The translations under genes and the position numbers were made by a program. From Escallonia rubra (Eukaryota > Streptophyta > Magnoliopsida > Escalloniales > Escalloniaceae), in NCBI GenBank assembly GCA_033065855.1, contig JAVXUO010002149.1, positions 26,153 to 90,152 of the forward strand: DNA of 64,000 nucleotides. The letters run 5' to 3'. The notes beneath the pieces were generated by a model that was not told the DNA's origin, did no database searches, and worked only from the letters and a program-made list of their open reading frames with translations. This document shows positions 19,470 to 56,424 of the stretch, piece after piece. Positions within the stretch are counted from its first letter, which is position 1. The number at the start of each line of letters is the position of its first letter.

Positions 19470-19489
19470 GTTTGCTAATGGCGTTGCCA

Positions 19490-20375
19490 ATCATAAGTTA
19501 ATTCCCAGAGTACAATCTCGTCTAAGTTTGGTGAGAATGTCCCATCACAAAAAGTGGCGTTTTACTCCATGGTCGCATGGCTTATGTCCCATTCTTCGCC
19601 TATTTGGGAAAAATTTGAACGGTAAACATTGGAGTTAAACGTGAGTAGTTGGTGCCCAATCTGCTTCTTTGTGGTTTTTGTGGGGTTTGGCCTCGAGGAG
19701 TTGGTGAAGTTTCGGGTTAAGGTTTTCCCGCCCCTTTTCCCCTAGTTGGATTTGTGACGTGCTTCGTGGTTATGTCGGTGCTTCTTACTGTTGGTTTGTG
19801 GCTTCCTGCGGTGGCGTGGTTCGGTGGGGGTGGGAAGTGCGATGACAGGGTTGTGAGTGTTCTTGTGATTTTTTTTGTTACGCTAACAGTAGTTTGTGGT
19901 GATTACACGCCCTTGGTCATGTAGGTTCTGCTGATCGAGACAGTGGGGATATGAACCGGCTCAGGCGAGGAGTTTAGTTTGAAGTTGTATGTTTGTTTAG
20001 GCACGGTGGTTACATTCATTGGAGCCATGTTGATGTTCTTTCAGTTCTATAAATCCAACGGGTGTTGGCTATTTAATTTTGTAGTTTTAAATGTTCGGTT
20101 TGTTGGTTCTATTGATCCTTCGTACTTGTTCCTTTTTTTCTTTGGGGGGGGGGGGGGTACTCAAACTAAATTACGACAGTGTCTTGAATTGAGTACACAT
20201 GCTGCATTATTTTGTAAGATGGATCTTAATCCTATTGGGGGTTTCAACCACTGAATCTCTGTAACCTCTGCTCCAGCGTGTAGGCTGTTCCTTGCCATGA
20301 AGTCGTGTGCTTTGCTTTATTCCCTGCATACATGGACAGTATTGACCTCTGGTTCCGGTTGACATGAATGTTTGA
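19490..20375. other. Upstream region of the bS21c gene
   Basis: This holds no recognised gene. A poly-G tract lies at about 20143-20157. A promoter for the following gene is expected here, but I could not single out a convincing TATA box. Confidence 0.5.
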
Positions 20376-20396
20376 CTGCAAAAACCCTCGTGTAAG

Positions 20397-23300
20397 TTGC
20401 GATCAAAAAACTTCAACGGCAGCTTCTTCATCATCTCTCTTAAAACCTCTCCCCTTCCTCTCTCTATCAAAAGATTCAAAACACCTACCATCCCAACTCA
20501 CCCTTCCTCTCTCTTGTTTCTTTCCTCCCCCTCCTCTTCGTCATCAACAACTCCCTCACAGTCATACTCTGTCGAATCCCCAAAACCCTTGACCCCAGTT
20601 GTCCCAAATAAGGAGTCCCATTTCCCCTCCTCCTCCCCTCTACCTTCTGATTTGCTTTCCGTAATCTGCCCCTGTCTCGAATTCTCAAATACCCTGTGCT
20701 TTAAATCCGGGTACAACGTGCAGCTGATAGTGGGCGAGGGAGAGACTGAGGAGGCTCTGCTTACTCGGTTTCGACGGAAGACGGCGAATATCGTGAAGGA
20801 GTGCAAGCGTCGCAAGTTCTTTGAGACCAACCAGGAGCAGCGCAAGCGCAAGGCGCGTGATGCCGCTAGGCGCAACCGCAAAAGGTCAGTGGTTTTACAT
20901 ACTTGTGTTCTCCGCAGCATCATGGAGATATTGTACATATAGATTCCTAATTGTGCATCCCATTTAGTGCCAGTTTTGTAAATTTGAAAGCTAGTACAAC
21001 TTACGATGCACAATCTACAATGTCTTAATGCACTGATATGGAGAACATTCACGTGGCTAAGTGGTTAGCCACCTACCGAAATGATTTTCCCTTTCTCTAC
21101 ACCTTAGCTTAAAGCTCTTATAGTGACAAAGTTTCAGTAGTACTTAAAAAGGGGGTTTAATTAGTAGTCCCTCCTTAATGTTATTATTGTCTCACTTGAT
21201 TTTTGTAAACTTTTAGGATGTAATTCAAACATCTACATATTCGAATGAATTTAAACAGCAGTTACATATATAATAATTGTTTGACGAGTTAAACTATTGT
21301 AAATCTCATATGTATAAATTAAATCTCTACTTGTTCAAAATTTATTAATGAATATGCAAAACATAACGGTAGAAAACTATGAAAAGAGGGAGTGAAAGAT
21401 GGTGCATCTCTCATGTATTTGTGTCTGTTTGTCCATAATATATGGGTAATAGTGGTTTCGTAGGGCATTAGAAGATTGATTTTGCTAGTCTTGAAGGATT
21501 TCAATGTTGCCACTTGGGTTTTTGCTGGGTTTAGGTATGCGAGCCTCTTTTCCTCTACATTTCACGAGAATAACTTTTCGTGTTTGAAATTGCTTTTGGT
21601 GGATAAAATACTGGTTCAAGTATTTCTGGCTTCGGTGTTTCAGGATTTTGTGTGAATCCTTGTGTTAAATCCTCCATCTGGCTTGAAATGGAGGATCTGG
21701 AGCATCCAACAGCTCAAAGATATACGATCATTGCTATTGCCTTTGTTTGGCATTACCATTATAATTGGTGCATGTACGAGTCTACTAGACTGAAAGGCTG
21801 AAGCTGCATATGCTTAGCAAGCCAAGTACATGCTAACGGAAGCTGCATATGCTTAGCAAGTCAAGTACATGCTAACGGAAGTTTGAAGGTAGCTGCTATC
21901 ACACTACCTATGGAGATTTTTATGGTAGCTCCCAAAGTTTGATTTTTTTTTTTTTTTTTTGGGGGGGAGCGGGGGGGCACAGACACAAAGTCAACGTAGG
22001 ATGGCCTCACTTGCTCAATGTAGAATCAAACCAGTAAATGATCTTTAAACCTTCCGTTTACCGGAAAAACTAGGGCAATAGCAAGTACGGATAGTATAAT
22101 GAAACCTAGGAAGACAACTAATGCGCTGGGGCTTTTCTTTGACTCGGGTTTACCCATATGGAAACTCTCTGATTGGTATAAATGGGTGTCCACTGTTGTT
22201 TATGTTGATAGAAAGGCAAAATCAATTAGCCTATTTCAAGTGATGAGCAGGCGCCTTCTTAGGAGTAAGAGATCGATCTAAGAGCCTGTAACACAAGCAA
22301 AGTGTGGAATCTGCATGTAGTCAATGATAAACATGATTGTCATATGACCCTTTTGGATTTCAGCCTATGAAACATGCTGATGATTTGGGCCGAAATCAAA
22401 AGTTTGTAGGAGGCTAATCTAGTACAAAAAGACATTGTGTCCCAGCCAATATGCATGCTTTTTGGCATCATAGAAACAGTCATAGAACATAAGAAAGAGT
22501 TTTAAGATTTCAAAAATGTATGCAATTTTTATTTAATGAGTGTCCTTTCTTCAGTTGGGGGAGGGGGAGGGCGGTTGGGGGTTGGGATGAGAGGAGGACA
22601 CTGTGGTCCCCTGGCTTTGCGGCTGGTAATTACAAACTTGATGATGTCCGTAATTCTTCGTCCATGGTTAAATTTCTTCTCATTGTCTTCCTGTTATATT
22701 CAGGAAGAGCTGAGTCGAAGGCAATGTGGGCCGTGAGGTTATGATCTTAGAGGCGTAAGATAGTATGAGCAGTAATGTTTATTTCACGCGCAGAAGAGGG
22801 AAGGGAGGGAGGGGGGGGGGGGTGGGTGTTGAGCTGGAATTTCTCAAGCCATAGATAAGTCTAAGATAGTGTCAGACATTAAGTTAGATCCATTCCACAT
22901 GCCTTACTGACTAAAGGAATAGACGAATGAAACCGAGCCCCATTATATTGCATTCGCTAACAAGCTTATAGTCCAAGTCTAATCCTGCCTAGCTTAGAAA
23001 TCTAACATCCAATTCTTCCATTGGGTTTGTAACCTCGTTGAGTTTGACATTGTGAGATACTAACTTTATTCTTCTACAGAAATATATGGCATGGCAGAAG
23101 CCTTCCTCCTAAAACAACAAACCTCAACTTTCTCCTTTCTTTTATCAGCTGACTTGGCCACGTCAAGCACTGAAATATGATATGCCTGGGCATTGACCTT
23201 TGACAATTGGCTTACCATTGAACAATAAAGAAAAAGCAAAGCGAAATCTCTGTCAGTTAGCTTTCTAGCAGTAGCAGATTAGTCCATGCTCAAGGTAAGT

Positions 23301-24594
23301 TTTGTCTTTTGTGGACACAATTGAGCTTAGGCAGCTGTGGATAGTACTATAATTTGCCAGCATTGCTTGCTAATTCTTGAGTGAGTTTAGTTGTCAAATA
23401 CAATAAAATAGAGTTACTGATTAAAGTTACGAACTGTCAAGAGAAGCACATTTTTAATTAGCTTGCACAACTTGGATTGTATCTCCTCACAAAACCTGGA
23501 AGGCAAAGCCAGCCCTCGTTTCCTTGGCTTGTACCCGTCACCCATCTGATCCCCTTTATGGATGAGCAAAACTGGTCATTTTTGGAAGGTTTTTGCGTTG
23601 GAAAATCATTAAGAACCTTTGAGCCTAAGATGGAAATTTTTTCGCAAAAGCTTGTTTAGGCTGCTTTCTAAGGATAGCAGTCCATCTCCTCAGCGTGCTC
23701 CAATAAAGGAAGTGAATGCTAGCTATACGAAGTGGTTTCTTTGGTTGATGTTGTCCTGCGGGAGGGGATGGGGGTGGGGGAGTAGAAATGGATGATTAGA
23801 GGTACAAATTCGGCATCTTTGATTTTGGCTGGCACCATAACTGCAAAGAATGTGTCTTGTTGCTAAATGGAAAAGGATACTTCCCTCTTAGCATAATTTT
23901 TCTCTTCTTTAGAAAACCAGTTCTTGTCCCTCTCTCTCACTGTGCGGCCTCTGGCACAATTTACGAGCTACAAATGCCTGGGCCCCACATCCAAACATGA
24001 TCCAACTTATTCGTATAACTTCACTATATTTTCATTGACTAGAATGAAGAGAATAACAACCCTACAGAAATGATGGAGATACGAACAAGCTGACACCTTA
24101 AAGGAATTACAAAGCTCTCAGAGCTCGCTGAAGCTTCCAATTTGAGCATTTTAAATGTCATCTGTCTACTGTGTTTACTGTATAAAATAATTTGTTCAGA
24201 ATAGAGCAAGGTTTTATAGTGTAATATAAAATTCTCAAGGAGACGTCATTGTGGGAGCTTTTTTGCTTATTTTATTTCATTTAGCTAAAAATGAGTGAAC
24301 AGATTTTTTTGTTTTACATAATAAATACGTGTAGGTTGGGCTAAACCTACACGTATATGTCGTTATAATTTGCTCTAGAAACTTAAACTAAAGATAGGTT
24401 CATGATTGTCAGATGGTGTTGAGCTCTTTGCATTGCCATTCTTTCGTTTCCTAAAAACTAAATGCTCCCCTATGTGTATTAGGCGGCCGAAACCAAAAGC
24501 TGCAAAACAGAGTAAGCAGGAAGCCCCTATGAAGGAGGACAATGATAAGGATGATAACTGGGAGCTTGTTGACGTAGAACTCCCCTACTACTGA
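20397..24594 (+). CDS. Plastid 30S ribosomal protein bS21c, two exons
   Basis: Bacterial-type S21 of the plastid small ribosomal subunit, encoded in the nucleus. Exon 1 (to 20884) has a Ser/Pro-rich, transit-peptide-like N-terminus, then the S21 core: YNVQLIVGEGETEEALLTRF, RRKTANIVKECKRRKFFET and a basic NQEQRKRKARDAARRNRKR helix. The intron 20885-24482 starts GTCAGT and ends TTAG. Exon 2 (24483-24594) adds RPKPKAAKQSKQEAP and an acidic tail with NWELVDVELPYY, the kind of end seen in other plant S21c proteins. The phase is consistent and the two exons total 200 codons. No ATG lies in frame upstream of the core: the frame is open from 20376 and 20397 is TTG. An ATG at 20368 opens a different frame that also looks transit-like. 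The start is therefore unresolved: an upstream exon, a non-AUG start or a frame change. The gene is complete at its 3' end. Confidence 0.75.
20885..24482 (+). other. 3.6 kb intron of bS21c
   Basis: Long for this gene type. It contains a direct duplication near 21798-21880 (GAAGCTGCATATGCTTAGCA repeated 40 bp apart), a poly-T/poly-G run at 21943-21974 and G-rich tracts at 22556-22590, 22797-22823 and 23759-23781. I found no transposon with defined ends in it. Confidence 0.6.
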
Positions 24595-25540
24595 CTTCGT
24601 TCAAGTTAATGCAACTGTGAATTCTGAATAGTTAAGTTCCGGAAAAACAGGAAGCCAACAAGATTGGCTGCTTAGTTGCTGTTGGAATTTTGAAGTTTGA
24701 TGAAGTCATCTAGCATCGTGTATAAAGGGTAAATTGGAAGGGGTGATCTTTTGTAGACCCTCTAAACTACTTCAGGGGAATGAAGGCGACACTGAAGACT
24801 CATATTAACTACTGCTATTTGAGAGTTTGATTGTGTGCTTGTACTGCTTGTGAGAAACGTAGGGGCCGTTTGACACACATTTTTGCACCTCTTTTTTGGC
24901 CCAATTTTAAAATTTGGCCCTTAGCCCAAAAAAGTGGAGTGTTTGGTAGTACCAGCTCTTTTTAAAAAGGCCCACCTCTTTAAAAAGAGCTGGCCGGTTT
25001 TCCAAAAGAGCTTTTAGCTCTTTTTGTTGCCTCTTTTCACGCGGCCCATGAGCTTCATAAGCAAACGTAGTTACTCTTTGGAAGTGCTTTTGCTGGAAAA
25101 GTGAGATGCTCAGCTGCTTCACTGTTCGTGCTAATGTGGTGTTTGGTTGTGTGATTTGATCAAGTTGTTATCACGATGATAATTGAGCTTCAGTTTTGTT
25201 GCTAAAAGGTCTCTCTCAATTGTTGTCTTTTATCATTTTAAAGACACTTGTGAAGCTCAATGTTAAACTGAAGCGCAAATATCGCTTTCCGTGATATATC
25301 GCTGCTTGTAGAGAACTTTTGAGTTTTACTTTTAATGTGCAACATGGAAAAAAGTGACGGCGGACATCATGTAACTGCAAAACCAGCACAAGTAACATTG
25401 ACAATAAAAGCAAGTATTGTGGGATATTTACTTGGATTTCTAGATCATATGATTATATAAACATGCAGCATCACTTACAAGTACAAATACTCGATTTGGT
25501 TGCTTGAATTGTTAAAGGTTTTTTGGTATATAAATCACCT
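24595..25540. other. Intergenic DNA with possible MITE
   Basis: No gene seen. At about 24860-25130 a stretch beginning GGGGCCGTTTGACACACA, with inverted CTCTTTTTAAA/TTTAAAAAGAG motifs, resembles a degenerate MITE. Clean ends and a target duplication could not be set. Confidence 0.35.
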
Positions 25541-26857: not shown

Positions 26858-27985
26858 TTTTTTTTTTTTGGGTCAAAGTCCTTTATATTTCATTCAAAAG
26901 AATATAACTGTTCACTTTTTACAACTCACTGCTATGCTACCTCTATTTTGTACAAGTAGTCTTTCCCTATTTACACACAAAGAGCTACTATTTACACACA
27001 AAAGTCAAGCTATCACTGTGAGTTTCTATGCACAAGTCATAGCCATGTTGTTCCCTTTCAGTGTTGAAAGATTCTATCAGAAATTCCTAATTCTGTGCAT
27101 AGCTTCCTATTTCCAGCAGTTGGTATGATGTTCTCCCAACTGCTTATTCTCCATTTGATCCAGTGTTGGATCACTTGGGTGCAACCCTCTTGACTAGTCT
27201 TCATATGATAAAAAATTCTCACATTTCTTTCCTGCCACACCCCATAGATAACTGCTGTAATAGCTAGTTTGTGGACTCTTGACTTAAAGCTTTTCCCTCT
27301 GATGTGCTTGACTGCATAATCTAGAAATTGCTCCTAATTGGTCAAAGGTATCTGCATCTGAAGTTTAGTTAGGATTGTACCCCATACTGCTCTAGCATAT
27401 GGACATTGAATGAAAAGATGCTCCTTAGTCTCTTGCTGATTGGAACATAGTTCACAATTTCCTTCCTGCACCATGTTCCATTGCTTCAACTTATCTTTGG
27501 TTCTCAATCCATTCTTGCATAGCATCCACATGATCATGGAACACCTAGGGATGTTACCAGGGAACCACATAATCTTCCACCATTTTACTCTGTTGTCCTC
27601 AACTGATTCCAGGCAGATTTGATGGTAAACTTCCCATTAGGCTGTAGATCCCAAGTTATTTCATCTTTACTATCAAAGCTAGGAATTGGTATAGAAGTTA
27701 TGATGTTGTTTGCCTCCCTTAAAGCTGAGGACCTTGTTGCACGCAAAACCCAATTTTGATTCACCAGCACTTGTGCTACTTTTGCATTCACCCCAAGTCC
27801 AGAATCATATGCAATTCTCAGCCCATATTTCGGAATCAATGCCCCACAAGGTAAGCGTTTATCCTTCCATAGCCAGATTTCTTTGCCATTCCCCACTTTA
27901 TATGTACAGAGTTGTTGTACTGGCTTCCTTAGCTTTAATAACTTTCTCCTTTTTAACCCAAACCATATAAAAAGGAGCAAATTTT
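26858..27985 (-). mobile_element. 5'-truncated L1-type LINE, 3' end with poly(A)
   Basis: The minus-strand translation gives the C-terminal end of a plant LINE ORF2. A post-RT region (KVGNGKEIWLWKDKRLPCG) is followed by EITWDLQPNGKFTIKSAW and a zf-RVT zinc-binding domain: FPGNIPRCSMIMWMLCKNGL, CELCSNQQETKEHLFIQCPYARAVW, with Cys-x2-Cys, His and Cys ligands. Then comes WQERNVRIFYH and a final stop. A poly-T run at 26858-26869 on the + strand is the element's poly(A) tail. The endonuclease and RT core are missing, as expected for a 5'-truncated insertion. It has in-frame stops and is dead. No target duplication was found by eye. Confidence 0.85.
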
Positions 27986-28271
27986 ATTTCCTATTTCTAG
28001 CCTAAGACTCCCTTAGAAAATAATGACCATTTAATTTTATTTTAACCAGACAAAAGTCTAACCTTCACTCTGTTTTTCATCTAAAAGATGACCATGTTAT
28101 ACTTTTTTATACCCTTATATGTATGTCGCTAAATACTTATGTAAAAACACTTTTTTAAGCGTTCCCTTTAAAAAAGAATTTCATTTTTGAACGATAAAAT
28201 TAGTAGAGAAAGTGGTGGTTGCCTGGTTGGGCTTATAAATCTTGCCAAGACCAGCCCATTCTTCTGAGTAG

Positions 28272-28297
28272 ACGGGCCCAATCTCATGGGCCCCCAC
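28272..28297 (+). promoter_or_regulatory. Paired GGGCCC/TGGGCC sites upstream of the RPN7-like start
   Basis: GGGCCC occurs at 28274-28279 and again at 28288-28293, about 160 bp before the ATG at 28452. Such sites bind TCP-type factors in many plant housekeeping and proteasome gene promoters. The copied 5' half therefore probably brought its own promoter with it. Binding is inferred from the motif only. Confidence 0.5.
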
Positions 28298-28451
28298 AAA
28301 ATAAAATAAGACCAAAAAGAAAAAAGCGAAAATCGCAAAAGAGGAAGAAGAAGAATTTGTACCGAGTTCAGGTTTCTCCCTTTGCAAGCCAAACTCCGAT
28401 ACAGAAACCGAGCCAACTCACTGAACCCCTCTGCATCCCAGACAAGATCCA

Positions 28452-31400
28452 ATGGAAGGCCAAGAGGGCACACAGCAACCCCAGCTTGCACTAGCCCACA
28501 AGCTATTCCTCCTCAACCACCCCGCCGTCGACGACATCGAGAAGGTCCGCCTCCGCGATGAGGCCCTGTCCTTCGTCGTCGCCGCCGGTAACCGCCCCGC
28601 CACCAACCATCGCGCACTAGCGATTTGGCTTAGTTTCCCTCGTTTGGTTGACTCGTGGACATACGGTTTGACTTGATTGTGTTGTTGATTGTAGATATGG
28701 CTCCGCTTTGCGAAACCCTGGCCGCAAGTTCCGTGTTGAGCGTGGACCAGAAGGTGCTCGACTCGATGCGGGCCAAGATCGACGACGAGCTCAAGAAGCT
28801 CGACGAAAAGTAAGTATTTAGTTAATTTGATGTATTTGTTGAGATGCTGAATCTACAATCATGTTACGTTTAGTAGACTAGAATAGTAAGATATTTGCGA
28901 AACAATGCTTATAAGAAGACTTGAAATGACAATTTGTCTTGAGTAGTATGCTCAATTCTAGTATTATTCCAAAATTAGGGAGACCCACTGCTTTAGGATA
29001 CTGCGGATCATGTGGTTTCTAATTTTTGTGATAAAAATATGGAAGAGTAGCATTATTCTTTCTCACTGATGATTCTTTAGGTTATTCTCATGAGTATATC
29101 CTTCAGAACTTACCTGCTAGCTTAGTGATATTTCTCATTAGTAAACAACAATGCATCGAATGGCATTTAAACAATTAGATGAAGCATCTGCTGAATATTT
29201 GTGTTAGGAGCTTCATTAGTTAGAAGATCACACTATTGCTAAAAAGGTCACTAGACCCAGATCAGGAGCTATTAATATGGCTTCTCAACTCTTCATGTGA
29301 ATTGTGATGTTCTAGTCAGACTCACCTGACCACAATCTACATGCAAAGGCGTCCTATCCATGCATATGCTACCAGGCATTGCACTTATGATCATCTAATA
29401 GCGTGGGAACTCTGTGGTTACTACTGAAGATAGCAAAAACCTTCTATTTTCTTGGTGCGGTTGAGTTGAGATGCCCTGTGGAAGCTACGAGCATTAGTTA
29501 GGCATCTTATATCTTCGACTTCATATCTTGTTGGATAAAGTTAGGAACCTTTTTTCAAGCTGTTTGAGCCTCTTTCCTGCACACTCCGTGCGTGTCTATA
29601 TTCTATTCTTGTTTTGCTGGTTAAATGTGCGCTTAACTTTTGCCCAAGTGTGGCTTTTGTGCTACACCTTAGGTTGAAATTGCCATTGCTTTCAAACTGT
29701 GTTCTTGTTGTTATATTGGCTGTAATTTATTGTTGACGTTTTCAACTCTACACGACATTAATGGTGAAATTCATATCTCGTTGGATAAAGTTAGGAAGTT
29801 GAGCTGTTTGAGCCTCTTTCCTCCACGCTGCCACCCCACCCCCCACCCCTTCGCGTGTTTTTATATTTTATTGAAGTTTTGTTGGTTAAACACGCGCCTA
29901 ACTTTTGCCCCAAGTGCGGCTTTTGTGCTACGCCCAAGGTTGAAATTGCCATAGTTTTGAAATTGTGTTTTTGTTGTTAAATTGGCTGTAAATTGTGTTA
30001 ACGTGTTCTTGGAGAGGTATTTGGCGTGTTCAGGCCCAACCTGGGGTGTTTCTTTTCGGATGGTCAATTGATTGTTGATAATCTCAGCTGGCAGCACAGG
30101 TTAATCCCTAATTGGTGGTTTATGTGTAAGAATGATAGGGACTCTATTGATCAGTAGTGATCTTGTGCCACTTTTGGTGTGGTGCTTTGATACTGAGATC
30201 CGTTGAAGATTTACTAAGGAGTTCAATGGGGTAAAGGTTCCAAGAGTGTTTGTAACGGGTGGCCTATGTGGTGCGTTTTGAGGGAAATGATTTAGTGGAG
30301 ATTCCTTTTCACCTGCTGCTTTCTGCTTTGCCGCGTAGTAGTTTCCAGGATATCTGATGCTTGGTCTCTTTAGAGGATTCCAATAGATTTTCATATTTTT
30401 CATTGTGTACAGGAGACCTTAGCCATAAACCTACCTTGCCTTTGAGTTGGTGTGCTTGAGTATTGTCATGCATGAACACATCACTATTCAACTGTTTCTG
30501 GGACAGTGGTTTGGTCGAGTTGTGGATCAGTTTTGGAAGACATCGAGGTTTATTTGGTTTAGATTGCTCTTAGAGAAACCTTGCTGCTCTCGTGGCATTC
30601 ATCATTCTAATTGAAATTTTTCCGAACTTGTTCGGTTTGGTTTTGGATATTGGGATGATTCTCAGTTGATGCTAACTGCTGTATATGAGGGCAGTGAGTT
30701 AGTTTAATCAGACTCAATTTATTTGTTTTGTCGCTTAGGGACTCACCTTATTTGTTTTGTCGCTTAGGGTGCAATAAGTGGTTATCTCTTTTACACTTAC
30801 TCATGTCTATTTTTCAGGATTGCCGATGCTGAGGAAAACTTGGGTGAAAGTGAAGTGCGAGAAGCTCATCTAGCTAAATCCTTGTTTTACGTCCGAATTG
30901 GTGACAAGATAGATTGCACGTAGACTCATCAAATCTGCTTTTGTTTGCTTCCTTTTTATACTGTATCTGTACAAATTTTCTCCCTTTTCCCCCTTATAAA
31001 CTCAGGAGAAAGCTCTGGCACAACTCAAGATAACAGTAAGTAAAACAGTTGCAGTTGGGTAAAGGATGGACTTGGTGTTTCATACACTTCAGATAGGGTT
31101 TTTCTACATGGATTTCGATCTTATATCAAAAAGCATTGATAAAGCAAAAAAGTAAGTTGAGGCCTAAATTCTTTTTTTTTGTTCGATTATCTTATGTAAT
31201 TTCTGTTGTTTAAGTCCCTTAACTTGTACTCCTGACATGCCAATAATAGCTTGTTTGAGGAGGGAGGTGACTGGGAAAGGAAGAATCGCTTGAAGGTGTA
31301 TGAAGGCTTGTTTTGCATGTCCACTCGTAACTTCAAGAAAGCTGCTGATCTCTTCCTTGATTCTATCTTGACTTTCACCACGTATGAACTTTTTCCTTAT

Positions 31401-31469
31401 GACACCTTCATCTTTTACACTGTCCTAACAAGCATCATATCGTTGGATAGAGTTTCCTTGAAACAGAAG
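28452..31469 (+). pseudogene. 5' half of 26S proteasome subunit RPN7 (PSMD6), five exons, broken
   Basis: RPN7 is a PCI-domain subunit of the 19S lid. Five exons match its N-terminal half: 28452-28587 (MEGQEGTQQPQLALAHKLFLL), 28695-28809 (MAPLCETLAASSVLS), 30818-30908 (IADAEENLGESEVREAHLAK), 31006-31151 (MDFDLISKSIDKAKK region) and 31250-31469 ([19 protein letters not shown], ending RVSLKQK). The exons sum to 236 codons in one frame. The C-terminal half with the PCI domain is absent; kinase exons follow instead. Two defects are visible. A nonsense TAA at 31060-31062 replaces the usual Gln codon in the VAVGQKMD stretch. At 30909 the donor dinucleotide after exon 3 is AT, not GT. The copy looks recent because the protein similarity is otherwise very high. 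Confidence 0.9.
28810..30817 (+). repeat. RPN7 intron 2 with an internal ~230 bp direct duplication
   Basis: Sequence at about 29523-29745 recurs at about 29773-30005 in the same orientation, anchored by TTGGATAAAGTTAGGAA, GTTTGAGCCTCTTTCCT, TTTTGTGCTAC and TTGAAATTGCCAT. The copies have diverged at many positions. No coding function is seen. Confidence 0.75.
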
Positions 31470-31804
31470 GTATATTAGTTTGCCACTACCTTTACCATTG
31501 CTGCCAAAGGTCAGCCTCTTGCGCATACATTGACTTAACATATTAAAGGTTGATTGACGAATTTGGCTGCATGTTTGCTCATGCTTCAGTCTTTTATTGG
31601 TTCCTTTGCTGCTTTGAGATCTCCATTAGTGATAAATGGTCAGATAATAACTTGGAGTTGAAAAGGTCACTAAATATCAATATATTTGTGGTTGCAGTCT
31701 TTCTATAAGTTTCCTCATGTGTTCCAGAGGTCCATGTGTAATGAAGTTTGTGATAACGTGCCCATGAAGACTTAACCTTTACCTATGTTCGATGTTAAAT
31801 TTAG

Positions 31805-34800
31805 GTGCACCGAGCAAGACTGAGAGGTGACAAGAGAGACGTTGTTGTCAAGGTGAGGCTACTTGATAAAATTTTGCGGCCTAAATGTGTTTGTTAGTTC
31901 TAATTCTTCTGTGTACTATAGATACAGCATCCTGGAGTACAGGATTTGATGATGACAGATATCCGGAACTTGCAGGCTTTTGCACTATACATGCAAAAGA
32001 CAGATATCAAATTCGATCTATTCTCCATAACTAAGGAAGTGGAGAAACAGGTGAACATTACTCCTAATTACCAATTTTTCCAATTGTTATTAAGCAACAG
32101 TAACCATTGATGCTTGTAAATATCCGGATTAACCCAGACTAATTTTGCTTTTCTTGTTATGAATTTATATTGTGATACAAAGTCCATCAGATTCCGTGAA
32201 ATGTTGCTTGCATGATGTACATGGTGCTTCATTGGTAGGTTGCATGTCATATTTATCAAATGCCGAATTGTGTTACTTTTTATTGACTAAAGATTGTTAA
32301 ACTTTCCGAGAATATCTGTAAACGTACACTTTGTATTGCTCTGGGACATTTTCGACTATTTATTTGATGATTGTTTTAGCTATTTGATACAGTTTGATCC
32401 TTTGACCGAGCCAACTCAATAAGTTTGAATCATTGAACATGCAATATTTTGGCTATCCTTTTCGTCTATATTTTGTCCTCTAAACTGCAACTGCTTGATC
32501 CTCGAACGAATCTGAGTTGATGTGAAGCTCGTTATATGAATTCTTGCCATTAGCCTGTAGCCAAATAGTAATGGATGTGGTGCTGTAGTAGCTTTATTTC
32601 ATAGTTATTCTGATATTTTTTCACGTTGTCTATTTGATAATTACAGAACTATAACTAAGGCATTAGTATTTGCAGGAATACTTGAATAAGTATCAGCTAA
32701 TCTGCTATTCCGCAGTCTCACCTTTGCATATATTCACTTATGTATATTGAGTGCTGTCCTTTCTGAACAATAGCAACCATTATTTTGCTGGCTTGCATTT
32801 TGAAAGCACAACAAGAGCTGCAACCGAAGCTAATATAGCTTCCAAAGAGTGATGCTAACCAGACAATGCGTGATATTATCTACTGTTTGTATTGGTACTT
32901 TCGATGTTGAACGAAGCTCCTTGGTTTTATTCTGATTGATGCTTAATCAGATCTACATTTTAATGCCTAATTATTTAGATAATGTTCTGGCATGCTAAAT
33001 GGATGCATCTCAAAACCTCTTTGTTGTTGCAATCTATCCATGTCTTTAATTATATGGAATAAAAAGGTTCCTTTTGAACCACCATTTTAGTTTCTGATAA
33101 TTGTTTTTCGCTTATTGCATTCAAGATTGGATATGAGTTCAACTTTTTGAGGGAGGCTGATGCTATGGAACGAATTCGCCGATTTCTCTATGGGAATAAC
33201 AAAAAGTCGCCAGTTTTGGTGCCACGAGTGATGCAGAATATGGTGACAAGGTATGTTATGCTGCACCACATGTTTTTGTTTGGCTGAAATTTATGAACTC
33301 TTACAGTAACAGGAGTTCTTTGAGCTATCTTGAATATTTAGATTGTTGACATCTTAAGCAGCACACCCTAATACAACATTAACCCCATATAATATGATGA
33401 ACTTTGAGGATTTCTTTACATCAAAATTATATATGTTCTCTACTCCAAGATGTGGTTATGGTTATATTGTCAGGCAGTTAATATATTTTGATATCTGTAA
33501 CTGTTCATTTGCATATCGGATAAAAGATGCTTTTGAATGCTCTTTGTGTGTGTGTTTTGATGCTTAAATACGTTGTATGCCATTATGTATATTTGATGAG
33601 TCACTGTGAGAACGAAGTTGTTATGGTAATTGGCATATTTGGCTTTATCTTGGCTCAGGTTCCTGAGCTTTAAGTATTGCAACTAATGTCGTAAATCTCC
33701 TTTTCCAAGCAATTTCCATGTCATTGAAATGGGATTTATGTCCACTATATTCGACAAAGATGAGGACAGAGTTCACAACAGGATTAGCAATTAAAATTAG
33801 AGTAAGGAGGTTGCCTAATGTTGGGAAATTCGATGTAGGTACAAATTTGTAGAGCGTTGAGCACATCTGTGAATTGACTCTCAAGACTTTTCTTATATTA
33901 GACCAGTGCTGAAGAGTATGAAGTTATATACTATTACACTAACAGCCCAACTGAGGGGTTTCAAACTGTTACATTACATAAGTTTCTCACATGCATGACA
34001 GGAAGATGCTGACTATTTTGGTAAAAGAAAACAAGCTATATCAAACACTAGGCGCCTAAGTAGATGGTGGAAAGGATTTCGAAGTAGAAATTTAAAGTAG
34101 TGACTGCCTCCAAATTTGGGAAATTGGGAACACACGATGCGAGCGTTTCATTGCCATTGCCTAAAATTCTTACAATGTTCGTTACCAGTAATCAAGAATT
34201 TGTCTTTACCTGCAGTTTCACAGGGCAACGTAAAGCATGCACCAATTCTTGGTGTTACTCATATCAATTACTTTGGTCTTGACCACTAACACATCTTTAT
34301 GCTGACTTACCTTTCCAGTCAAAGTTCGATATTGAGTGAATTTCTACCACATGCATTCATAACCTAATTTTACCCATGTGCCACTGCTTTGGTCTGTGCA
34401 TTTGTACATCGAGTTGGCACCTGCAGCATGTGTATGAGACCAAATATGTAGAAACCAAACATGTATCTTCCAGCTTAAACACATCACAATCAATTACACA
34501 ATTTTCTTCCTCGACATAATGGAACTAACAGGAGGGAAAACCATATAGTTTCAAGAAGAAAGAAAACTAACTCGGCTGAACGTAAGTGCAAGGCTATACT
34601 TCAGAGAACTGCCAAATATAATGAGTAACCCTTTGGAGTTTGGAATGATAATATGTAGATTGTAAGAAGAGCTAATCATGCTTATCAGTATAAATGGCTA
34701 TTGACAGGATCAAGATTGTAGTTTGTCCTTCGTGAATCACTTGTGTTGCTGGCCGAAAAAGGTTAAAAAAGGCAAAGTACAATTTTGGATTGTCAAACAT

Positions 34801-37800
34801 TCCAAAGGTTTCTTTCTATGATTCTTGCTGAAAGAATGGAAGAGTCAAATCTTGTGTAAAGTTAAGAATCCCTATTGTTGTTATTATGTTGCTTCGTTAA
34901 TTTGATTTGTTTCTTTCGGTAAGTGTGATTTTTGTTTGCTCTGAAAAGTTCTGTCATATGCTTGTGCCGATCTTTTAGTACGAAGAATGGAGTTTATTCC
35001 ATGGCATTTAACATTTCTTTAATGTCGAAGTACAATGGAAACTGTCCAATTCCGTATTAAGATCCGACGTGATCAATTTAATGTTTGAACTCCCTTCCGT
35101 TCTCAAAGAACTTTCGCATAACTAGGTTTTTCATTTGTCTTTCCTTTTCTTTTTCAATGCTGCTTTATTATATCTTCGTCTAAAAACTTCACTTATACCT
35201 TATTCCTCTATTTTTCGATAGGGGAGGGTCTTAGTAATGGAATATGTTGGTGGTAAGATCGCAGCAAAGCGGTAAGCCCCTTGATAATTTGCCAGTATTT
35301 GCATGTTAAATACTTAGGATAGTTTCCTCCCACCCCCCCCCCCACACACACACACACACACACATTTTTTTTCTCCCCTTCTTTGTGTCTTGCGTGAAAT
35401 CACATATCCGAGTTCATATCCTCCTCCTTTCATTTGGCATGTTGGTAAGCCTATTTGGAAAGTAGTTATCTATGGATCTTCAAACGATGTAAAACTACAG
35501 GGTTATCAAGGCCTTGGTTGGAGTTACTGAAATCATTTCTGAAAGCAGGACAATCCAATGGAAAGTTGAGGCAGTTTTGAAGCTAATGTTTGTCATGGCA
35601 AATGCTCTTCAGCTTCGCCCACTTATTGGAATTCCTGGTTCCTGAACTTGAAATCTGCTTGGCTGGATTTCTCATGATTTCTAAAGAAGGAATTTGCTGT
35701 ATTTTGTTTTGAAAATTAGTTTTATAGAAGTTCTTCATCTTTTTGTCCTCCTTTGGCTACTTTTTGACCGCTCATAAAACAAGTAGCATGACTCTTATAA
35801 TAGTTTTTTTAGTGCAGGAACATCCTTAAAAGTTTGATGCTAGCATATGGGCAAATGATACTGAAGAGTGGTTTCTTTCATGCAGATCCTCATCCTGGAA
35901 ATATACTGATCTGTAGAGGTTCAGAGGCAAGTTGGCACTAATGTATCTCTGTATACTGCAGCTAGCTCAACTCCTTGCTGCCTTTACAATGTTACATATC
36001 TCACTTATTTGCATTTCAATCTGCAACTTACGAGTTCAATGTCGTACTTCTGTTTTCGCTTATGCAGGTTGCTTTGCTCGACTATGGACAAGTGAAGGAT
36101 CTCCCAAACTCTTTGAGGCTTGGATATGCTAGTCTTGTTCTTGCTATTGCAGATAACGATCCCATAAGAGCATCAGAGAGCTTCAGGTACATGCTTGCCT
36201 ATGAAGTCCTTCTTTCTCAGTTTCTCTAAAGTACTTTAGCTTGAATTTACAATCATAACTGGAGCCATTTGGAGAAAGGAAATCAAAAGGAAAAAAGCTT
36301 CAAATTCTTGGAGTTCCATATTTCAAGCAAAGAATCAAGCGACTCCCACGTAAAATTACTATAGAAGATATGAGTGGCTCCATTTTCTTCTTGATTACTG
36401 TAGAAAAAGTGTATTTTGGTTTTGGCTCCATTCAAGATAGTGTATTCTGAGCTAGATTACTATAGAAAAAGCGGGTGAGGTATTTGAAGTTTGAGGGACA
36501 AATAAAGTGGCCCTTACTCTATTCACTGTGGTATAGAATGTGAAGGCAAGAGAGAGATGGAAAGTGTTTGGTTGAACAGGAAAAGAAAAGAAAGGAGTAA
36601 AAGGGAGGGGGCATAACCGTCTTATGCTGTTATGCTTGTACTCTCGTACGGAGAGGTTTTTACTTGAAGAGGGAAAGAGCACTTCTCTCTTCCTGGGAAC
36701 CTTATCCATGCCTCCCTTACCCTGCTCCCTCTATCCTCCTACCAAATCGACAAGGCTGGATGAGCTCCAAATAATGAGTTTGTGTTGAACACTGATAATT
36801 TGAAGTAGGAGAGAAACAGGATGCCATCTTCATTATGTAGATTAATTCTATTACTACAAAAGTTTGGGGCAATCTTAAGTTTAACCCTGTGAGAAATTCT
36901 TAATACTCGCTCCTTTATCAACATCAGGGAGCTCGGCATAGATTCCTTAAGCAATTGCGAGGATGAACAGAAAGAAATGCTTAGGTTGGCAGGGACAATG
37001 TTTGAAACAAAACTACCACCTGGTGTAATGATGCTGCAACCTTTTGCAAAAGAATCTTCCATAAAAAAAATTGCTGTTCAGGTATTCAGTGAATTTCTCC
37101 AAGCTTTTGATGATAATCTTCTTCATATCTGCCATTTGTTTATAGTTGGGTGTTACTACAGTAGGGCATGTTATAGTTTCTAGCCTCATAAGCTATTTTG
37201 GTAAATGTGTCTAGATTAATTATTCTAGACAGATTCTTACTGAAATAGGGTCAAACATTCTGTTGAGTTTTCATCATTTAAATGGCCACGTTGGCTACAT
37301 TTGAATTGATCATGTTTAACATGAATTAAAACTTGAAGACATGATATTGTTTCCATTTATCCTATATTATTTCAAGGTGCAGCTCCCCCCCCCCCAACTC
37401 CCAACTTTGCACGTCCGTGCTGTAGATGCCTCGATGCAAACTATGGATGCTTCAGTATTAGTCTGTAGTTAATTGAGAAAACAAGAAAAAGAAATAATAA
37501 TAGCATGGTTCCAGGTTTACCTAGAGATGTCATTTGGGCCGGGCGGCCCGCGGGCCGGCCCGTTTTTGGCCCGGGCTGGCCCGGCCCTGAAAATGAACAG
37601 TAGAAGCCCGAAAAAGGGGGCCTAGGGCCTGGGCTTGGACCAGGCCGCGAAATGGATCAGTTTTGGCCCGGCCCGGCCCGATTTGGCCCGGGTTTGGCCC
37701 GGCCCGGGTGGCCCGGGCTTTCTGGCCCGGTTTTGGCCCCACTTGTTTTTTGAAAATGTAACTTTTCCCCCCCTTTCTTCCATCCCTATTTAGTTTCTGT

Positions 37801-39499
37801 TGCAATTTATTGAGCCAAGATTCTAATGATTTTCACAGGAACTAAATAGGGATCCCAAATTTCTGACCAAGTCCCAACATACCACGTACTGAAATACTCA
37901 AGAAAGATGTGTAGTACTTTTCCTACAAATAGTACTGATGCACTGAAGATAAGCCAACTCCTCACAGTGAAAGAAGGAAGCAAAATGCAAGCGTGCATTT
38001 AAGGATTAGTTGACTGCCAAGGAGACATTTAGCAAAAATTACCCTATTGCAGGGCAATAACAGGCAGATGGACAGTGACTGGACAAGCCCATAGATCATA
38101 TGACCAACTTATACCATCTTTACAAAACTCTCGTACTTAGTCTGTCATCTTGAGAGGAAATAACAAGTTTATACATTCCTCGACATCCATAGATCATATT
38201 CAACCAGACCAAGGTTAATTAAAATGAAAACTTCACTAATTATTAGACCGGGAGACATGAAAATTTTGGCAGTCTTAAGATGAAAGAGGGCCATCAATCT
38301 ATCCTAGGCAAGAAATAGTGAAGTGAAAGCTATTGCGACAAGATATGACAGATGGTGCCTTAAAACAATTTTCTCATGTTAAAATTGAATAACATGAGAA
38401 AAAAAAAAAGGCCTGGGCCCAAGCCCGGCCCAGGCCCGGCCCTAAATATTGGGCTTAGGGCCTGGGCCTGGACCAGGCCTAGGATTCACTGCGCCAGGCC
38501 TGGCCCGGCCCGTTTTTACCCTCCCTCGGCCCGGCCCCGGCCCCGGCCCGTTTGCAGGCCCGATGGGCTTGGGCTGGGCCGGCCCAAGCCCGGCCCTTTG
38601 ACATCTCTAGGTTTACCTTCATGTCTGTTAATATCTTACAAATGTGTTGCTTGTACTCTGTAGTCCTTTAGCGACAAAAGTAGAACTCAAATATCAATTC
38701 CCTAAATTAAGTATTGTAGATTATATCTGTAACTTGTTGTCATATTAAAAACAATATAAATGTGTGCACATACACGTATATATACACTAGTGGGGAATGT
38801 CGGTGAGAGATGAGGGAGGTGGGTATGTGGAGATTGTGGTTGAGAGAAATGAGGGACATGGGTTGTGGGGGCTGTTTCATGTTTTCAATTTGTTTGTTAT
38901 TGTTGACTTTAATACCCTTTAATGAGATGATTTAGAACAATAAACATGGGTAAAATTGGAAGTCTATAAAAGGCTTCACCATAAGGGTCTTATTCCTTAA
39001 CTGTGCCTGGTTAGTAAAGAGAGACTAAATATGTATCCTTTTTTGCAGTCTCTGCCCCCCATCTGCCAGTAAAGTGTGCATTAGCGATGTAGATGTTACC
39101 TTTTTTAGCAATAGGTGGAGGGACAGATCAAGAAAAAAATGGTGTAATTAGGTTTTTTCTTAATATAGCATGGATTTGTTATGATTGCAAAAACGCAGAT
39201 AATGCTTGGACTTGGAACACAGTCTAAAGTCGCTTACAATACTATGGTGAGGATAGGCTTTTCCGGAGGAACTATTTTATGTTCTCCGAACGGTGCATCT
39301 GTTGAGAGGACTTAGCGTTGGTCTTGGAATCAACTACTCTTGTGCAGAGCAGTGGAGACCCATTGCTGAAGAAGCTCTATATCTTGCCGGCAGACTTAAC
39401 TGTGATACTTTGGTGTCCCGTGGTAATGGACTTTTGACCACTGAAGTGTGGGGGATCTCTCTCTCTCAAAGCACTGGTCCTGCATCGATTTTGCAATAG
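31805..39499 (+). CDS. 3' part of an ABC1K (ADCK/UbiB) atypical kinase gene, eight exons, open reading frame
   Basis: ABC1 kinases act in plastids and mitochondria in quinone and lipid metabolism. Exons: 31805-31852 (VHRARLRGDK), 31922-32050 (HPGVQDLMMTDIRNLQAF), 33126-33250 (READAMERIRRFL), 35227-35271, 35818-35926 (FFHADPHPGN catalytic signature), 36068-36186 (LLDYGQVKDLPNSLRLGY), 36928-37081 (MFETKLPPGV) and 39257-39499 (LRGLSVGLGINYSCAEQWR), stop TAG 39497-39499. They sum to 324 codons without a stop. The family N-terminus, including the KxGQ motif and most of the N-lobe, is absent; RPN7 exons lie upstream instead. The 35227 exon gives MEYVGGKIAAKR, so about 20 residues usual after MEYV are missing and its acceptor sits in GGGGAG. 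Intron 35927-36067 starts GC, not GT. No start codon of its own was seen. Whether it is translated is unknown. Confidence 0.85.
35327..35364. repeat. C-run and (CA)n microsatellite in kinase intron
   Basis: A poly-C run at about 35331-35343 is followed by alternating CA to about 35363, inside the intron between the MEYV exon and the HADPHPGN exon. Confidence 0.9.
37522..38609. mobile_element. 1.09 kb nonautonomous hAT element in the last kinase intron
   Basis: The ends are TAGAGATGTCA at 37522 and the inverse TGACATCTCTA ending 38609. Perfect 8-bp target duplications GGTTTACC lie at 37514-37521 and 38610-38617. Both subterminal zones (about 37530-37740 and 38405-38600) are filled with GGCCCGG/CCGGGCC motifs in inverted arrangement, which makes them very GC-rich. 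The AT-rich middle has no transposase. It sits between kinase exons 36928-37081 and 39257-39499, and the target duplication is unmutated, so the insertion is fairly young. Confidence 0.9.
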
Positions 39500-39639
39500 A
39501 CTTTCCTGGCTGATGATTATGTGCTTGAAAATGGATTCAGTTCATTTCCAAGGGAGACACATTGTTCCTTATTCCTTTACATGTTTTTATAGTAGATATA
39601 TGATTAACATCCTCCAGTGTTGACAGTTTCAGATAAGGA

Positions 39640-42080
39640 TCGCAAGTCAAAAGTACACAGACGTGGTTTTCTCAGAAGAATATTTCGTAGAGACTAATTG
39701 AATTTTGAAGCGGGGTAGGCGTGGTTCAAGCAGGAATTATCGACATTCGGTTTTGTAGCGCTTGATTACTGTAAAAACATCATCTATCTTTGATGCCAAG
39801 GAAAGTGGGTTCGCAGTCGACGTGGAGGTGCCACAAGGAATGCAGTCCGAGTCAGATGCCAAGTATGTTGACGTGAGACACAGCAACGGTGGAGCAAGGG
39901 CAGAGACCAAGGGCTTCCTAGACAGAGCCTGAGGGTGGCAGTGCTGCGAGGGCGATGGCGCAGGATGAATATACGACGATAGTCACAGTACGATACTTAG
40001 GTCCAGAGTCAGGGTCCTGTATGTTTCTCTCTCTAGGATTTTAGAGTGAGAAAGTGAAAATGTGAGAGTCCTCGTTCGTGTCGAATGAATTCTCAAGACC
40101 TCTATTTATAGAGATTGAGATGATGATGTCATTAAACGACACATGGCGCTCCCCGGGAGTGACACGTCACCGGGGGGTCCACAGGTGCCAGTGCTCCACG
40201 GACTGTCGGATCGCATATTCATCCGGCCTGCTCCTCGCAGCGTCGCTCTGTCTGGAAAGACTGGCTCCCACAGTGTTAGTGTGGCCAGAGAACCCCCTTG
40301 ATCTAGCCTCCAATCCAAGCCCTTGCAGAGTCCCACAGGCCTGGCAGCGGTGGGAAAGACCCGACGCCCAACTGCCAGGCGAACTAGGCGCGATGCCCTC
40401 CGAAGACCTGCCCTCGTCTCGGAGTGACCCGGGGGTCATAGTCCCTAGGGGTGCCGATGCAAGCCCCCAGTGCCGGAGCACGTAGGCCAGTCACGCAGGC
40501 ACCACGGCAGAGATAGTGTCCCGGAGGAGTCGCCTATTCCGCAGGCCGAGTTAGCATCCCTGAGGAGCCGTCTACCTGGCGGAAGGGGAGTCTTCGTGCC
40601 GGAGCACTTAGAGCTCCCTGGCAGAGATAGTGTCCCGGAGGAGTCGCCTATCCCCGCGGGTGAGTCCTTGTGCCGGAGCACTCGGAGCGCGTCAAGGTAG
40701 CATCCCGGAGGAGCCGTTTACCCGACTGGCCGAGGTAGCATCCCGTCTACCTGGCGGAAGGGGAGTTGAAGAGCTCCCTGACGGAGATAGTGTCCCGGAG
40801 GAGTCGCCTATCCCCGCGGGTGAGTCCTTATGCCGGAGCACTCGGAGCACGTCAAAGTAGCATCCCGGAGGAGCCGTCTACCTGGCGGAAGGGGAGTTGA
40901 AGAGCTCCCTGGCGGAGATAGTGTCCCGGAGGAGTTGCCTATCCCGCGGGTGAGTCCTTGTGCCGGAGCACTCGGTGCGCGTCAAGGTAGCATCCTGGAG
41001 GAGCCGTCTACCCGACTGGCCAAGGTAGCATCCCGGAGGAGCCATCTACCTGGCGGAAGGGGATTTGAAGAGCTCACTGGCGGAGATAGTCTCTCGAAGG
41101 AGTCGCCTATCCCCGCAGGATGATGCACACTCCGGAGAGTGGGTCGAAGCATGTTCCACGAGCAAGGCAAGGTGCACATGGTGTGGTGCCCGGGGGGCAT
41201 GTAACATGATTGTGGCGCATGGGCGCGATGAAGTGAGTAAGGTGCCGGGGTCACGTCTGTGTTAGTGGCGCGGCGCATGGGCGCGACATAGTGCGTATGG
41301 TGCCGGGGGCACGGTAGTGTGACAGAGAGCCTGGGGGCACGGCTGTATCAGCGGTGCAGCGCACGGGAGCGGCGGAGTGTTGGAGTGCGGCGACGGGGTC
41401 GCGGAGTGATGTCCGGGCGACCGGGGTCGCGGAGTGTCGTCCGGGCGACCGGGGTCGCGAAGTGTCGTCCGGGCGACGGGGTCGCGGAGTGATGCCCGGC
41501 GACGGGGTCGCGGAGTGATGTCCCAGGCGACGGGGTCGCGGAGTGATGTCCGTGCGACGGGGTCGCGGAGTGATGTCCGGGCGACGTGGTCGCGGAGTGA
41601 TGTCCGGGCGACGGGGTCGCGGAGTGATGTATGGTCCCTTGAAGAGAAGTGAAAATGCTAAGTATGGAAGCCAAAGGCCAACCCTTGGGGGAAGGCCAAG
41701 GCCAACCCCAGGGGAAGGCCGAGGCCGACCCCAAGGGGGAGGCCAAGGCCGAGGCCGACCCCAAGGGGAAGGCCAAGGCCGACCTCCTTCGACAAGCGCC
41801 AAAGGTGCGCCGACGGGCGATGTGCGACGGTCGGAGCGTGATGAGCAGTCGCGCAAGGATCAGTTTCTTGGTGACGAAGTCACGTAGAAGAAGTAAGAAG
41901 TGCACGTGACTTGAGCGTGCATGCTTTGACCGGTTGTGAGCGTTGAATATTGACTGTTGCTTGTGCGGATGTGTCATGCAAAATGGGACCACAGTGGGCC
42001 TTTGGGTGCGACCAGAATAGGTTGGGAACAATCTTTTTACGTGATTGAAAAGCCCGGTTTGATAACTGTAAGTAGCGAGT
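39640..42080. repeat. GC-rich block with two families of tandem repeats, class unknown
   Basis: A sharp rise in GC marks this region. At 40490-41130 a composite unit recurs about five times at uneven spacing (112-167 bp); its marker GTGTCCCGGAGGAGTCGCC occurs near 40517, 40629, 40791, 40921 and, altered, 41088. At about 41395-41630 a 24-28 bp unit (GGCGACGGGGTCGCGGAGTG) repeats about nine or ten times. At 41680-41780 a GGCCAAGGCCGA-type repeat follows. A TATA-like TATTTATAGAG lies near 40103. The long open frames here on both strands (up to 227 codons) simply follow the repeat period. It may be part of an LTR-type element, but no ends or protein domains were found. Confidence 0.7.
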
Positions 42081-46400: not shown

Positions 46401-46588
46401 ATCGAAGCTTGTCTGATGAGAAGGCCATGTCAATGGAGTATACTTGTTCTTCCTCAAGCACTTCTTCAAGTCCTACAGGTTCTTCAGCCAGTACTCAAAT
46501 GAATCCTAGTGATTGCAACTTGATTAGCAGCAGTAGCCAACATTTGCGACAGGATTGTGTTGGTCCTTCACCTTTAACTCGCGGGTAA
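43468..46588 (+). CDS. Small Ser-rich plant protein, tentatively ATI3-like, two exons
   Basis: Exon 1 (43468-43570) encodes MLGRVRPSPSMSLELLELE followed by PPSKFIKHDTLSIY. Intron 43571-46145 (GT...CACAG) splits the codon of a Glu. Exon 2 (46146-46588) begins EATLMKLKEGSFRSSRLTPE and continues as an acidic and Ser-rich, probably disordered, tail to TAA at 46586-46588, giving 181 codons. The N-terminal SIYEATLMKLK block resembles a dicot-specific family that I associate with ATG8-interacting ATI3 proteins; that name is from memory and is uncertain. A GTAAGA at 46585 could act as a donor, but the candidate acceptors near 46667-46680 lead quickly to a stop. No transmembrane segment is visible. 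Exon 2 is duplicated at the window's right end. Confidence 0.65.
43571..46145 (+). other. 2.6 kb intron of the Ser-rich gene
   Basis: No embedded gene or element with clear ends was seen. The final ~280 bp (from 45864) is duplicated together with exon 2 at 62977. Confidence 0.6.
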
Positions 46589-46890
46589 GACTTGAATTCG
46601 GGTATCCCTCCTAGTAATGTATTGCAAGTGATCGGGGTCTTACATTGTTTCTCTGTTGCGTCAATGAGGTCAAGTAGACCGTCATTTGCTTAATCATCTT
46701 CCTCGGGGGTGGATCCTCTGGGCTGCTTGGCCTAGTTCCTCCGTGATATCTTACCGTTTAAGCTGTAAAAGGCCTGAAGGCTGCGAGAACTTGCCCTTCA
46801 CGTTGGAGTTTCCTCGCAACTTTGTTCTTCTCAATTATGATACAATGTCTATTTTTTATGAGAACGACTAAGAAAAGTAGTTGCATTTTT
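45864..46890. repeat. Segmental duplication, copy 1 (partner at 62977-64000)
   Basis: The block from TGATGAGGTACTCTATTGAG through exon 2 and at least 400 bp downstream recurs 17,113 bp to the right with only scattered base changes. In the 143 codons from 46157, about six amino acids differ. Confidence 0.95.
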
Positions 46891-47788
46891 CGATTTTGAC
46901 ATCTAAATGTCTGTATCAGCAAGCCATTAAGCGGCAATTAAGGATACTGGTAGAGGCTTATATATATCATGTTGTTTTATGGTAATTAAGCATAAATTAG
47001 TTGAACTCGTGCAGTATGCACAAGAAGGGAGGTAGTTTGTTACGAAGTGTAGGAAGAGAGGTCATGATTTCTATTGCCTGAAGCCAAAGAAAAAATACAT
47101 TTGCCCAACATTATTGGTTCTTGGTATCATATGTCATTTTTGTTGTACATGATTTCTGTTTGACGAATCTTTCTTTGTAACATCTTGATGATTTATTTCA
47201 AACATGCAAATTCAATTCAAAGCGGGCTTACTCTGCAAAGTAACTTTCGCAGTATAGAAAGGATTTTAGACGACATGCATGTGAAACTATAAATTTTAGA
47301 AGTTCACCGCTTAATGAGTTTGTTTAGACAGTTGTGAGAGCTGTTCGTTTCAAAGAAAATGAATTTCAATGATTGTTGTAGTTCTAGCCTTGATTCATTG
47401 GCCGAATTACGTTTGAGAATCCATGAAGAAAGATGATGATCGAAGTGTTCTGGGGGGCATTATATGATTTTCAACGATTGCGGAAGATGAAGAGCGCTTC
47501 AAGCAACTAGCAACGAATTTAAGCTTTTCGGCTTGTGCTAACCGGCTGAAAATTTTGAATTCAAGCGACTAAATTTATTGTTGGCTATTGGAGTTTCCGG
47601 TTTGTGTCAGCTATATGGAAGCCATCAAAGTTTGAGATTAACTCTAGGGAAAAGAAGAGATTTTAACAATACTTTGAAGAAAATGCTTAAATAAAATATA
47701 GGCCGAAATCACGGCCGAAAAGATAAGAATAGGGACACGGATTCCTGTTGTAAGCAGGGGTGCTGTGTTAAGAGAGGAATTTCAGCTG

Positions 47789-47822
<34 letters not shown>

Positions 47823-56392: not shown

Positions 56393-56424
<32 letters not shown>

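Follow-up and report, generated by a model that had tools for sequence, protein, structure and literature searches.

We analysed a 64,000-nucleotide stretch of DNA from Escallonia rubra, hereafter the window, which covers positions 26,153 to 90,152 of contig JAVXUO010002149.1 (C2330; 90,152 bp in total) in assembly GCA_033065855.1 (566 Mb, 3,222 contigs). No N occurs anywhere in the window. The locus studied here joins the first five exons of a gene for the proteasome subunit RPN7 to the 3' part of a gene for an ABC1 kinase (ABC1K) on the same strand. A first-pass annotation, made from the letters alone, had described this layout; its order and strand were borne out, while the frame and the end of the kinase part needed correcting. 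All positions below are those of the window unless a contig is named.

The RPN7-derived half (27951-31491, + strand) comprises the upstream region, exons 1 to 5 and the first 22 bp of intron 5, and it aligned with contig C3186:67741-71288 at 95.6% identity. Its exons, all on the + strand, are exon 1 with the ATG (28452-28587), exon 2 (28695-28809), exon 3 (30818-30908), exon 4 (31006-31151) and exon 5 (31250-31469), the last ending in phase 0. Joined, they give 236 codons with one TAA, and they aligned end to end and without gaps to residues 1-236 of 8amz_R, a solved plant RPN7 (E 1e-114, stop read as X). The RPN7 domain PF10602 was recovered over its whole profile (1-174/174, E 1.1e-64, stop again read as X). 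This half therefore resembles RPN7/PSMD6, a subunit of the 26S proteasome lid, over residues 1-236 and has the exon borders of the intact gene on C3186, but it lacks the PCI domain and the C-terminal helix, both of which the C3186 copy has. It also carries a stop codon, TAA at 31060 in exon 4 where C3186 reads CAA, and a lost donor, AT at 30909 after exon 3 where C3186 reads GT, so that neither the open frame nor the full set of splice sites is kept. The remaining exon borders of this half were canonical. The five exons, the 236 codons, the phase 0 end at 31469, the stop and the missing donor had all been reported in the first-pass annotation, and each was found in the sequence. A tandem repeat pair (76% alike) lies within intron 2, at 29520-29743 and 29770-30008, and C3186 has this pair too.

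Compared with C3186, the RPN7 half showed eight substitutions in 708 coding bases, namely four silent, three missense and the CAA to TAA change, with the donor loss besides. C3186 retained the 8amz_R residue in 4 of 4 cases, namely at the stop and at each missense position, indicating that these changes arose on the window branch. We followed the frame from the RPN7 start through 13 splicing variants, namely the joining of all exons, retention of intron 3, skipping of exon 3 and use of 10 cryptic donors, and in 13 of 13 it terminated after 92-132 codons. A fusion protein is thus not expected, if the RPN7 promoter transcribes the locus.

The kinase-derived part retains exons 4 to 12 of the 12 in its parent, all on the + strand: exon 4 (31805-31852, starting in phase 0), exon 5 (31922-32050), exon 6 (33126-33250), exon 7 (35222-35271), exon 8 (35818-35926, with a GC donor that is also GC in C3186), exon 9 (36068-36186), exon 10 (36928-37081), the kept part of exon 11 (39257-39399) and exon 12 (39633-39697, ending ..KDRKSKVHRRGFLRRIFRRD stop). 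The ABC1 domain PF03109 matched with an E value of 1.5e-39 at profile positions 46-238 of 244 only, compared with 2-238 in the C3186 parent. The part is recognizable as an ABC1 (UbiB/COQ8-like) atypical kinase and includes the HADPHPGN and LLDYGQ stretches. It differs from such a kinase in lacking exons 1-3, 21 codons of exon 7 and the donor of exon 11. The KVAQ and GSASIAQ stretches, which we take to be the KxGQ-type and Ala-rich-loop N-terminal motifs of ABC1 kinases, sit in exons 2-3 of the C3186 gene, and the segment that holds them is missing from the window with the deletion of those exons.

The kinase part has lesions of its own. Exon 7 has two extra Gs after the parental acceptor and two in-frame deletions of 57 and 6 bp, which together account for the 21 lost codons. 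Reading from the parental acceptor led to a frameshift and a stop after 104 codons, whereas an acceptor 5 nt downstream, at 35227, kept the frame open. The last bases and the donor of exon 11 were lost in a 23-bp deletion between CTTAA repeats, and reading continues from there to a TAG at 39497-39499 in the former intron. The kinase frame drawn in the first-pass annotation, given as 324 open codons (323 codons plus the stop), began correctly with an ABC1 exon in phase 0 at 31805, but it is open only if the 35227 acceptor is used and the former intron is read, so that its last 30-odd codons are intronic. Its stop at 39499 accordingly had to be given up: the true last exon, at 39633-39697, is still present and had been overlooked.

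We listed 18 kinase codons that differ from C3186, 5 of which (109-112 and 291) are disturbed by deletions; the other 13 comprise 7 missense and 6 silent changes, and one more missense change lies in the last exon, at 39662. The outgroup 8amz_R served for RPN7 only, and the kinase substitutions may fall on either the window or the C3186 branch. We also simulated 15 random substitutions across the kinase exons of the parent, with an assumed transition weight of 1.6, and the frame remained free of stops in 60% of 20,000 simulations. The open kinase frame is therefore no evidence of function, because it would stay open by chance with P of about 0.6 and because it needs a non-parental acceptor. 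Continued expression from an internal start, which the first-pass annotation had offered as one explanation of the open frame, is not supported, given this chance openness and the disabling lesions that the kinase part itself carries.

The first-pass annotation had suggested a comparison with the complete genes of the same genome, and this comparison made the lesions readable. Contig C3186 carries an intact RPN7, a spacer of about 6 kb and an intact ABC1K, all on one strand. RPN7 (C3186:68247-72234) has 8 exons and 386 codons, with matches to the RPN7, PCI (PF01399) and C-terminal-helix (PF21154) models. ABC1K (C3186:78211-86770) has 12 exons and 480 codons. The spacer between them (C3186:72235-78210) is the presumed site of the kinase promoter. 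Splice sites in these models were chosen by a script that required an open frame, and the shortest passing model was taken (4 models passed for RPN7 and 12 for ABC1K). Among the compared exons, borders and splice dinucleotides were equal in both copies except for the RPN7 exon 3 donor and the borders of ABC1K exons 7 and 11.

A search of the source genome with PF10602 gave six matches on three contigs, two each on C2330, C3186 and C2826, the last probably a different PCI-family gene. The same genome searched with the kinase part gave 15 matches, of which 6 were on C2330, 7 on C3186 and 2, weaker, on C2176 and C2087. When a third copy was sought with a 2,001-bp spacer query (C3186:72400-74400), the only full-length match among 124 was C3186 itself, the rest being partial matches to dispersed repeats. 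This part of the spacer holds such repeats, most matches falling near query positions 310-690 and 1080-1600. Elsewhere on C3186, an isolated 50-codon RPN7 fragment (105321-105470; residues 274-323, 90% protein identity) lies 33 kb downstream of the intact gene, and C3186 76403-76937 resembles 105790-106296 (77%); these two likenesses are perhaps traces of an older duplicate of the region.

The two halves meet at 31488-31491 (+ strand). Window 27951-31491 ends, and window 31488-35253, which aligned to C3186 79609-83362 at 98.2%, begins, in a 4-bp overlap, ACCT, across which 8,324 bp of the parental order are absent. The missing sequence holds RPN7 exons 6-8, the spacer and ABC1K exons 1-3. What remains between the exons is a hybrid intron (31470-31804) of 22 bp from RPN7 intron 5 and 313 bp from ABC1K intron 3, flanked by exons in phase 0. 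The exons adjoin in phase 0, as the first-pass annotation had noted, across a gap of 335 bp and not the 336 bp it had given. The fusion looks in phase because both parental introns are phase 0, and selection is not required to explain it. A 1,151-bp query over the join found three places in the genome, namely the window and the two halves lying apart on C3186, so that among the places found by DNA search the join arrangement was seen on C2330 only. On the whole of C2330, tblastn with both full proteins (E up to 1e-4) found no RPN7 3' exons and no ABC1K 5' exons, and reciprocal pieces elsewhere on the contig were rejected. A separate tblastn of the window returned chance-level matches only (best E 0.38). 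A chimera made by recombination had been proposed. The data support a DNA rearrangement, but one that deleted the sequence between two genes already adjacent on one strand. Since the parents are neighbours on C3186, an ectopic exchange between genes lying far apart was rejected.

Intron 10 of the kinase part contains a 1,088-bp hAT-like element (37522-38609, no strand assigned) with 11-bp inverted ends, TAGAGATGTCA/TGACATCTCTA. The hallmarks of hAT elements are an 8-bp target duplication and short terminal inverted repeats. Here, besides the 11-bp ends, an 8-bp duplication, GGTTTACC, flanks the element at 37514-37521 and 38610-38617, and the corresponding site in C3186 is empty. The element is assumed to be non-autonomous. 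Directly downstream of the kinase part, a 2.2-kb insertion (39791-42031) is unmatched in C3186; this stretch is GC-rich (62% at 40-42 kb) and has internal repeats.

Taken together, these data point to a young, decaying fusion pseudogene that arose by deletion within the second copy of two adjacent genes, a reading to which we give a probability of about 0.88 from the sequence comparison. A same-strand RPN7-ABC1K pair would have been present as a second, diverged copy on C2330. One deletion of 8,324 bp, with its left end 22 bp inside RPN7 intron 5 and its right end 313 bp short of ABC1K exon 4, would then have taken RPN7 exons 6-8, the spacer that presumably held the kinase promoter, and ABC1K exons 1-3. 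To judge by the junction, it was probably sealed at the 4-bp repeat by end joining or illegitimate recombination, and it would have left the hybrid intron with an RPN7 donor and an ABC1K acceptor, both in phase 0. Because the copy was redundant, it would have decayed later, through the stop codon, the lost donors, the small deletions, the extra GG and the hAT-like insertion, presumably with loss of function. As in a duplicated pseudogene, introns are kept, and disabling lesions stand against an intact copy in the same genome. Several points weigh against this reading. Transcription from the locus, nonsense-mediated decay or a regulatory RNA may exist; internal kinase ATG frames are left, of 298 codons with the shifted acceptor or 219 codons downstream with the parental acceptor; and both exon 7 deletions keep the frame. 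The GG insertion in exon 7 sits within a run of Gs and may reflect an error in base calling. Divergence along the contig is uneven, and the duplication history is accordingly not simple.

We measured noncoding divergence from C3186 outside the listed exons. The results showed 2.6% in the RPN7 block and 1.3%, 1.8% and 2.1% in three kinase blocks, and the youth suggested in the first-pass annotation agrees with these values in the fused part. The RPN7 figure owes part of its height to the first 500 bp of the block (27951-28450), upstream of the ATG, where divergence is 6.8%. Plant sequences change at about 6.5e-9 substitutions per site per year, and at this rate a divergence of 1.8% would correspond to about 1.4 million years, as an order of magnitude only. 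Five blocks at window 4.5-13.3 kb differed from C3186 by 3.9-6.4%, coding sequence unmasked. Divergence thus steps at 28450/28451, from 3.9-6.4% (6.8% just upstream) to about 1-2% downstream, a step that gene conversion or mosaic ancestry would possibly give.

Whether the C2330 copy is a paralogue or an allele bears on what the fusion is. The sequences lead us to regard it, with some reserve, as probably a paralogue of C3186. In the block downstream of the kinase, the two copies on C2330 differ from each other at 98 of 6,895 columns (1.42%) and from C3186 at 128 and 117 columns (1.86% and 1.70%), so the copies on one contig stand almost as far from each other as from C3186. Of 43 genome matches to a 2.5-kb query taken from this block (40 of 70 candidates scored), three were strong, with C2330 holding two and C3186 the third; the others were short and weak. 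The alternative, that C2330 is an alternative haplotype (haplotig) of C3186 and the fusion a heterozygous null allele or structural variant, we consider rather unlikely, though it deserves a hearing. The assembly does hold redundant contigs: a near-identical ABC1-family gene occurs at C604:9851, C2961:29473 and C2962:8633 (99.3-99.9%), and equal-scoring PCI matches occur on C2910/C2911, C2717/C2718/C2776 and C591/C2456. Divergence between C2330 and C3186 is moreover patchy, 0-7.8% per 500 bp, as would fit haplotypes of different ages. Against this, the only redundant contig set that was measured is closer, at 99.3-99.9%, C2330 is not collinear with C3186:26001-126000 along its full extent, and two flanking-block copies of about the same age lie on C2330 itself (1.4%, compared with 1.9%/1.7% to C3186). 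It would also be surprising if one segregating allele of RPN7, apparently the only such gene, had gathered several independent knock-outs.

A false contig join or collapse at 31488-31491, the assembly error that the first-pass annotation had named as fatal to a chimeric gene, is very improbable. C2330 does terminate within a repeated block, and the assembly is in many contigs. However, the window is free of N, and on both sides of the join the sequence is collinear with one parental contig, its order and orientation unchanged. Independent lesions of this copy also lie on both sides: its own substitutions, the stop, the missing donors, the small deletions and the clean insertion flanked by an 8-bp duplication. 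A transcribed, functional chimera, in which the RPN7 promoter drives a kinase-like product or a regulatory RNA, also appears improbable from the sequence. The upstream region, the splice sites of the hybrid intron and the 298-codon kinase frame do exist, yet the short frames from the RPN7 start, the stop after 104 codons from the parental kinase acceptor, the absence of exons 1-3 and of 21 exon 7 codons, the chance openness of about 0.60 and the 7 missense changes among the 13 codon differences that could be used from the kinase exons compared all speak against it. We see a still slimmer chance that a spliced chimeric transcript from the RPN7 promoter, a strong constitutive promoter under which the deletion would have placed the 3' half of ABC1K, would act as an RNA, as a small-RNA source or decoy, on both intact parents; if it did, the chimera would link the dosage of two unrelated genes, RPN7 and ABC1K.

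Capture and fusion of the gene fragments by a transposable element, a Helitron or a Pack-MULE, has a negligible probability. Helitron captures hold gene pieces in one orientation with introns kept, and the two pieces here resemble them in this respect. The pieces and their flanks are, however, collinear with one native locus far outside the two genes, the match to C3186 extending to window 4.4-13.3 kb and 42-56 kb. A survey of window 26.0-42.5 kb gave 18 inverted-repeat pairs. One pair (28258-28273/39666-39681; 16 nt, 88%) encloses roughly the entire locus; its right arm, however, falls within coding exon 12, and the pairing appears fortuitous. Target duplications were seen only beside the pair that bounds the hAT-like element in the intron. 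Transposon capture was rejected on this survey and on the collinear flanks.

The surroundings of the locus are also rearranged. C2330:1-18591 and 72736-90152 (window 46584-64000) are tandem copies of about 17 kb at 97% identity, and C2330 ends inside another restart of this unit. Window 54562-62981 holds an F-box/LRR gene and repeated units of 0.7-2.9 kb that resemble each other at 84-91%, which seem to form an F-box array on the margin of the duplicated block. About 11.8 kb at window 13300-25060 were unmatched in C3186:46001-106000 save for a 56-bp piece, and an open reading frame resembling ribosomal protein S21 lies inside this stretch, at 20376-20939.

A literature search found no text with RPN7 and ABC1K together, and this statement extends no further than that search. 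The available part of a study of Oryza fusion genes (Zhou et al. 2022, PMC9199173) gives cases in which both parents persist (Type I) as the largest class, 35 of 69 expressed cases, with 2 of the 35 having parents in the same region, and describes duplication preceding fusion as the main pattern. The locus resembles Type I in that both parents, the C3186 RPN7 and ABC1K, are detectable in the same genome, and it resembles the scenario of Fig. 6A of that part, in which the parents share a region and the fusion arises in a copy made by segmental duplication. It differs in that the 69 cases classified there are expressed, whereas here both halves are disabled, and in that the 6A fusions arose by splice-site change or skipping, whereas here intergenic DNA was deleted. 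In maize, as the available part of a fractionation study describes (PMC2893956), duplicate genes are lost by deletions flanked by short direct repeats. The repeats here are likewise short, 4 bp at the 8,324-bp deletion and 5 bp at the 23-bp deletion. The maize copies treated in that part are homeologues after tetraploidy, whereas the second copy here may or may not stem from a whole-genome duplication, and here one deletion spans and fuses two genes.

The locus combines a fusion of the Oryza type with a short-repeat deletion of the maize type, and it has already decayed. It is a clear and unusually readable example of a known process, the decay of redundant gene copies: one deletion sealed at a microhomology both fuses and disables two genes, and the intact pair in the same genome exposes every lesion. 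It also carries a warning, as an apparent open frame over many exons can result from choosing alternative splice sites. If C2330 is allelic to C3186, the locus would instead represent a null haplotype for a proteasome gene that is apparently single-copy, and it would then matter more.

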